The position numbers and the translations under genes are program-made. Shown here piece after piece: positions 46,710 through 49,015 of a stretch of 49,015 nt of DNA. The notes below the pieces were generated by a model, which did no database searches, was not told the origin of the DNA, and was given only the letters and a program-made list of their open reading frames with translations. Source of the DNA: an uncultured Flavobacteriaceae bacterium (lineage in GTDB: Bacteria; Bacteroidota; Bacteroidia; Flavobacteriales; Flavobacteriaceae); contig CAJXEB010000013.1 of assembly GCA_913052585.1 (NCBI GenBank), positions 1 through 49,015 of the forward strand, read 5' to 3'. Numbering within the stretch: position 1 is the stretch's first letter; every line of letters begins with the position of its first letter.

Positions 46710-48350
46710 TTATCTTTTCGTTATAACAAATTCTGATCGTCTATTATTATCGTTTTGTTCTTTGGTACAGTTGGCGCCACAATTAACAAGTGGTTTAGTT
46801 TCACCAAACCCTTGGCTAGTTAATCTAGCTTTATCGATATCTTTAGAGATAATGTATTGCATCGTAGAGGCTGCTCTTCTGTTAGAGAGTCCCATATTAT
46901 ATTCTGGCGTACCACTATGATCGGTATGACTTTCAACTTTAATTTCCATTGCTGGATATTTTTTCATGATTGCCACTAATTTGTCAAGTTCAAAAGCCGC
47001 AATCGGTTTGATATTGTGTTTATCATAATCAAACTGAATAGGGTTTAAAACCACTTTATCATCTGCAATGATTTCTTCGATAGGACGAAGCATTAGCGTT
47101 CTACTCACCGGTCCTTGATTGGTTGGAGTTATTGTTAGGCTATTACTTTCGTAACCTTGCAAAAATCCTAATACTTCATTTTGCTTATCACACTCTACAA
47201 CAAGTGCTACAAAACCATTGTTATCTGCTGTTTTAGTAGCTAATTTATTTTCAGTATTATCATAAAGGTCTACACGTGCACCTGGTAATGCTTTTTTAGT
47301 ATACTCATCTACTACTTGAACATTAAGTTCGTAATCACATAATGGAGCGATTAATTTAGCAGCATAAATATCATCACTACCAACACCACCTTTTCTATTA
47401 GAAGAAACATATCCTTCTTTAGTTTTAGGGTCGTATTTAAAAGCGAAATCATCACTTGAGCTATTAACATCGCTTCCAATATTTCTAACACTACCAAAGC
47501 CTGAACCATTAGCTTCTGCATAGAAAACATCTAATTCTCCTACTCCCATATGTCCATCACTAGAGAAGTAAAGGGTACCGTTTGAGTCCATAAAAGGGAA
47601 TACCTCTTTTCCTTCGGTATTAACTTTATCACCTAAGTTTTCTGGTTTACCAAGAGAACCGTCTTTGTTTACAGCTACCTTATAAATGTCAGACATTCCT
47701 TTTCCACCAGGCATATCACTTACAAAATAAAGCGTATTTCCATCAGGGCTTAAAGCAGGTTGTCCAACAGAGTTTTGGCTGTTATTAAAACTTACTGGCT
47801 GAATGTCTTTCCAAACACCATTTTCTTTTACGGCCGTAAATAAGTTAATCTGGCTAATACCTTCTTCACTTTTTTTGTATTTACCTTTAAAGTAATCGTT
47901 TCTGTCAAAATACATCCTTTTACCATCTGCAGTTATGGCTACATTACCTTCGTGGTATTTGGTGTTTACATCTCCAGCAATTAGGTCTGCATTTTTAACG
48001 GTTCCGCCAATAATTTCTGCAGCATATACATCTAAAAATGGTTCTTCGTTCCAGCTGTATTTTTTTCTAGCGGTATTTCTAGCCGAAGAGAAGTAAAAAG
48101 ATTTATCGATAACGGTACCACCAAACTCGGAGTATTCGGTATTGATTTCTTTCATATTGGTAAGCGAAAACTTTTTAGCATTTTCTAAATACCTCGGTAG
48201 GTAATTAGGGTCTTTCATAAAAGCAACTGCTCTAGAGTCTGCTGGTTTCATTTCAGCAAATTTCTTCATCCAGGTATTATAATTACCATTTTTACCATTG
48301 GCTTTTAAAACTTGAGCATAATTATAAACTGTTGGCCCACATGTATACAT
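46710..48350 (-). CDS. OmpA-family PD40 protein, N-terminally truncated and fused to a cysS start
   Basis: 546 residues from ATG 48350. From about residue 10 on this is a Bacteroidota OmpA-family protein: end of a TPR-like region ([34 protein letters not shown]), WD40-like PD40 repeats ([47 protein letters not shown]), a carboxypeptidase-regulatory-like domain (~355-430) and a peptidoglycan-binding OmpA domain (~440-546; [40 protein letters not shown]). Full-length relatives carry about 100 more N-terminal residues: a signal peptide and TPR units. Here these are replaced by [10 protein letters not shown], the class I signature start of cysteinyl-tRNA synthetase, in frame. The product lacks an export signal and should not reach the periplasm. 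Confidence 0.88.
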
Positions 48351-48449
48351 CCTTACATGACTTGAATCTATAGGAATAAATTCTTCTTTTTTTCGACTTA
48401 AAGTATTATGAATGAATAATTTAGATATAATGACACTTATCCTTGATGA
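48313..48449 (-). pseudogene. cysS: cysS N-terminal fragment joined to the OmpA-family gene
   Basis: In frame with the OmpA gene and directly downstream of the folE stop codon, the - strand reads [18 protein letters not shown], then [19 protein letters not shown]: the N-terminus of cysteinyl-tRNA synthetase, including the CGPTVY zinc and HIGH-region lead-in. Normally this continues as YAHIGNAR; here it becomes YAQVLKA of the OmpA gene. Both parents plausibly share TATGCTCA at the join (about 48320-48313). No ATG or GTG precedes 48350 in this frame, so the native cysS start is either non-standard or lost. The rest of cysS (more than 400 codons) is absent. Confidence 0.85.
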
Positions 48450-49015
48450 TTACTTATCAATATTAATTAATGATAAAAATTTCTTCCATTGTTTATCATC
48501 TTCAAATTTTCCACCTGCCTCAATTGTAACTGTACTGCTCGTAATATCTTTTATACCACGCGATGAAACACAAAGATGATCTGCATCGATTAAAAGTGCT
48601 ATGTCATCTGTATTTAAAACAGATTTTAATTCATTAAAAATTTGAACTGTCATACGTTCTTGAACTTGAGGTCTTTTAGAAAAATAATTAACAATTCTAT
48701 GAATCTTAGATAGACCAATGACTTTTCCTGATGATATATATCCAATATGAGCTTTTCCAATAATTGGTAGAAAATGATGCTCACAATTAGAGTAAAAAGT
48801 GATATTTTTTTCAATTAACATTTTTTCATATTGATATTTATTATTAAATAAAGAAGCTTTTGGTTTCTTGTCAGGATTTAATCCAGAGCATAGCTCTTTT
48901 ACATACATCTTAGCAACTCTAAAAGGGGTCCCTTTTAAACTATCATCACTTAAATCCAAACCAAGTATTAACATAATTTGTCTGAAATGTTCCTCAATAC
49001 GTTCAATTTTTTCCT
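48450..49015 (-). CDS. folE: GTP cyclohydrolase I FolE (5' end outside window)
   Basis: About 188 codons visible; the frame is open to the right edge (EKIERIEEHFRQIMLILGLDL), so the true start lies outside. It converts GTP to dihydroneopterin triphosphate for folate or related pterins. Motifs: DDSLKGTPFRVAKMYVKELC, zinc ligand Cys and His in FYSNCEHHFLPIIGKAHIGYI, GLSKIHRIVNYFSKRPQVQERMT, and second zinc Cys in ADHLCVSSRGIKD. The sequence is of the type seen in Bacteroidota. It is followed after the stop codon directly by the cysS fragment; from memory folE and cysS are neighbours in many flavobacterial genomes. Confidence 0.93.
   Translation of the reverse strand, partial: EKIERIEEHFRQIMLILGLDLSDDSLKGTPFRVAKMYVKELCSGLNPDKKPKASLFNNKYQYEKMLIEKNITFYSNCEHHFLPIIGKAHIGYISSGKVIGLSKIHRIVNYFSKRPQVQERMTVQIFNELKSVLNTDDIALLIDADHLCVSSRGIKDITSSTVTIEAGGKFEDDKQWKKFLSLINIDK

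Follow-up and report, generated by a model that had tools for sequence, protein, structure and literature searches.

The open reading frame at the right end of contig C13, which appears to fuse a cysteinyl-tRNA synthetase (CysS) start to an OmpA-family protein, is in all likelihood the end of a chimeric contig rather than a gene fusion. An assembly error almost certainly joined roughly 700 bases of an unrelated bacterium to one end of a contig that is otherwise flavobacterial. The window analysed was the whole of this contig (49,015 bases), which belongs to a draft bin of 117 contigs that is 83.54% complete and 5.12% contaminated. The join lies 682-703 bases from the contig end. Sequence comparison gave the two halves of the frame different closest relatives, found the right half to be colinear with the folE-cysS locus of another clade, and traced the match of each parent to the join, where it stops. 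We infer that the join was made in assembly rather than in a living genome, as well as which step of assembly would be responsible for it. The features concerned are collected in Table 1.

Table 1. Features at the right end of contig C13, with the evidence used to assign them.
Feature	Position	Strand	Evidence
3' part of the host OmpA-family gene, without the signal peptide and about 90-95 residues	46710..48312	-	62-87% protein identity to full-length same-genus genes
Join, given as the longest word both parents could share (21 bases)	48313..48333	-	Base matches in OmpA and TMED6-clade cysS relatives
5' end of a foreign cysS (about 33 codons)	48334..48431	-	cysS model, TMED6 alignment, start-codon scan
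Foreign folE (GTP cyclohydrolase I), truncated at its 5' end where the contig stops	48450..49013	-	80% protein identity to bacterium TMED6

Translation across the site confirmed that a single open minus-strand frame, with no stop, carries the CysS start into the middle of the OmpA-family protein, as the preliminary description of this DNA had reported. On the minus strand, the CysS start spans 48431 to 48313, and from there to 46710 the frame encodes the rest of the OmpA-family protein. Of the 466 positions of the NCBIfam cysS model (TIGR00435), only 1-36 are matched, at 48312-48419 (-) with E 5.5e-9, in fair agreement with the ~40 CysS residues originally estimated, and the alignments of close OmpA relatives begin at residue 5-7 of the 546-aa ORF and run to its end. 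Since the cysS model stops where the OmpA relatives begin to align, the end of CysS and the beginning of OmpA coincide. The OmpA part had been said to lack its signal peptide and about 100 residues; such a loss is present, and a count against the 630-aa protein of L010 puts the figure slightly lower, at about 90-95 residues. The G+C content of the last piece of the contig (0.279) is low, yet it falls within the contig range of 0.267-0.389, and composition therefore does not decide the origin of the right end.

At the DNA level, the right-hand 703 bases match the folE-gap-cysS stretch of bacterium TMED6 (G059) and of two relatives (G060 and G061) over nearly their whole length, with 80, 77 and 77% identity. 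These matches run from query positions 3, 18 and 27, respectively, through to the join, and in two further genomes, G067 and G069, folE alone was matched (504 and 460 bases; 74 and 72%). The search covered 120 genomes, comprising TMED6 and relatives, and gave some match in 52 of them; at most four candidates per genome were scored, so that the misses are not firm. The TMED6 alignment covers folE, the short gap and cysS as far as TATAATTATGCTCA, where it ends, and beyond this point TMED6 continues as an ordinary CysS (YAHIGNARP). The right end is colinear with a TMED6-type genome. The earlier doubt over how the CysS start is worded was justified. No near-identical genome, and hence no donor species, was found among those searched, the best reaching 80% DNA identity. 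Around the host, the right end found matches in 44 of 59 genomes, the bin's own contig included (at most nine candidates per genome scored). Outside C13, the long host-side matches (300 bases or more) were 65-75% identical and lay in folE and just behind it, and the cysS part gave only short ones, of 74-102 bases at 71-75%, in G023, G040, G050 and G055. Phage were also considered as a source of folE and rejected: 14 of 50,697 phage records matched, in no case did a single place cover 80% of the query, and the best had 22% coverage and 69.4% identity.

Among the best 80 of 577 FolE relatives, TMED6 stands first with 80% protein identity to the right-end FolE, and the other 79 reach at most 71%. 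A tree of 32 rows, made up of the C13 FolE and 31 chosen relatives and with a bootstrap that is not fully settled, grouped the C13 protein with TMED6, G060, G061, G067 and G069 in a set of six rows (support 95/89), its position inside this set being weakly supported (81/67). The FolE copies on the bin's contigs C4 and C2 stand elsewhere in the tree, apart from the six-row set, and the copy on C54 sits on a very long branch. Because the TMED6 clade lies among Bacteroidota FolE in this tree, FolE does not tell the phylum of that clade. TMED6 is entered in NCBI as unclassified Bacteria; it may be a member of Marinimicrobia, and a full-text literature search returned nothing that names the two together. 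The colinearity with a TMED6-type locus and the separation of this FolE from the bin's own copies lend strong support to the suggestion that the right end is a false join and comes from a different genome.

Could the fragment nevertheless derive from the host itself? The bin holds a second folE-cysS locus, with a complete cysS at C4:2901-4349 and its own folE just before it at C4:2258-2812, which would be available for an internal rearrangement between the host's own cysS and OmpA genes. A complete cysS elsewhere had indeed been predicted, but the fragment does not derive from the C4 copy, which at the junction position reads CGPTVYSNVHLGN instead of CGPTVYNYA. On this difference, a rearrangement with the host's own cysS was rejected. 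The right-end FolE is, moreover, only 63% identical to the C4 FolE (67% to that on C2 and 40% to that on C54) and groups with another clade in the FolE tree, and we give an internal rearrangement practically no chance. The microhomology-mediated rearrangement proposed at the outset likewise found no support. The cysS family search of the bin yielded four matches, namely the complete gene, that of C13 itself and two partial ones at later model positions, with no further host cysS near-identical to 48334-48431. A CysS start was present near folE in five of the six relatives' loci checked (four same-genus, one same-family), the sixth, L031, showing none within the stretch examined. The bin's further FolE on C54 (L008; G000:C54:2907-3443), which shares 40% identity with the right end and has the very long branch, could be a paralogue or belong to another contaminating contig.

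The left part of the frame is the host's own OmpA gene. In a search of 59 genomes including the bin, 18 of which were other genomes of the same genus, 14 of these 18 yielded a full-length relative, with an open frame of 609-653 codons and 62-87% identity. In G004 the gene is split between two contigs, its two pieces being 66 and 64% identical, G008 has a C-terminal piece only (64%) besides a 38% paralogue, and no close copy was found in G011 or G018. The 14 full-length genomes and G004 were informative for the junction, with G008, G011 and G018 uninformative, and the CysS-OmpA junction was absent from all 15 same-genus genomes in which the N-terminal side of the gene was recovered. In the closest relative, L010, the gene directly upstream is one that we take to be porP/sprF-like. 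Neither the OmpA 5' end nor this upstream gene was found in the bin at the DNA level, the sole match being 58 bases at the junction itself, and the upstream protein gave two matches in the bin, the better only 29% identical. With the bin 83.54% complete, the missing 5' end is weak evidence alone; it fits a contig whose proper continuation stayed unbinned.

The longest word that both parents could have in common is 21 bases, 48313-48333 (AACAGTTTATAATTATGCTCA), and it occurs once in C13. The shared word first put forward, TATGCTCA, was thus correct as far as it went and too short. The figure of 21 bases is an estimate from relatives of the two parents: 11 OmpA loci (L010-L020) match 15-20 of the 21 bases and three cysS loci (L116-L118) match 17-19, the closest being L017 on the OmpA side (20/21) and L116 (TMED6) and L118 on the cysS side (19/21). 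At one position C13 has GTT where all three cysS relatives have GTA, so the word truly common to the parents may be shorter than 21 bases. In ungapped blocks of ten bases, TMED6 agrees with C13 at 5-10 positions per block on the cysS side, falling to 1-4 past the join, and L010 agrees at 1-6 before the word, 8 inside it and 7-10 past it. Where assembly starts from k = 21, a shared word of about 21 bases would suffice to open a false path.

Such a word would also serve a real, recent transfer, in which a TMED6-type folE-cysS piece entered by microhomology-mediated recombination, truncating the host OmpA gene and creating a CysS-OmpA hybrid frame; with a complete cysS already in the host bin, the fragment would be dispensable. 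We consider this very improbable. The fragment continues without interruption until the contig ends. Where the N-terminal side was recovered, in 15 of 18 same-genus genomes, the match begins at residue 5-7 and none carries the CysS part; the failure to find the displaced OmpA 5' end in the bin points the same way, if weakly given that the bin is incomplete. Nothing calls for a natural insertion from the same donor.

Under the preferred reading of a chimeric contig, an assembler or a later contig-merging step would have passed from the host OmpA gene into the TMED6-type folE-cysS locus of a bacterium present in the same sample as the host flavobacterium, crossing through the short word common to both genes at the codons for TVYNYA, and no cell would carry the fusion gene. 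We favour this picture because the join lies 0.7 kb from the contig end, the contamination is ~5%, the two sides come from different lineages and a short shared word is possible. In its two lineages, its join near the end, its possible short shared word and its contaminated draft bin, C13 is like the chimeric contigs of metagenome-assembled genomes; the sole difference seen is that its junction happens to be in frame and mimics a gene fusion.

The other end of the contig was also compared. Its left end (2-2254, -) lies within an open 751-aa protein built of repeated FNQDIGNWDVSNVT-like units. Akin repeats are present on bin contigs C45 and C27 and in three of ten same-genus genomes, and this may explain the contig's ending at that point. 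Eighteen genomes were searched at the DNA level (the bin, 10 of the same genus and 7 of the same order), with matches in the bin, in three of the ten and in one of the seven, long stretches reaching an identity of about 72%; as the gene is made of repeats, these matches neither show nor exclude a second foreign end.

A further observation concerns the cysS start codon. The stretch from the upstream stop to the conserved HNTL motif holds no ATG, GTG or TTG in the C13 piece, in TMED6 (L034/L116), in L117 or in L118, and the first such codon of the foreign piece is an internal ATG at 48350. All four have an in-frame ATT at the same aligned place, a few bases after AGG (48431-48429 (-) in C13). 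These alignments suggest ATT as a possible start of cysS in the TMED6 clade; the alternative would be the internal ATG that precedes YTCGPT. Ten further loci were scanned (L121-L130); three show the CysS motif, and all three have TTG or ATG there.

The finding matters for data quality only. The last ~0.7 kb of C13 are unsuitable as a basis for statements on the host's gene content, or on transfer or fusion in it. Automatic annotation that called the frame a 546-aa OmpA-family protein with a CysS start would be wrong.
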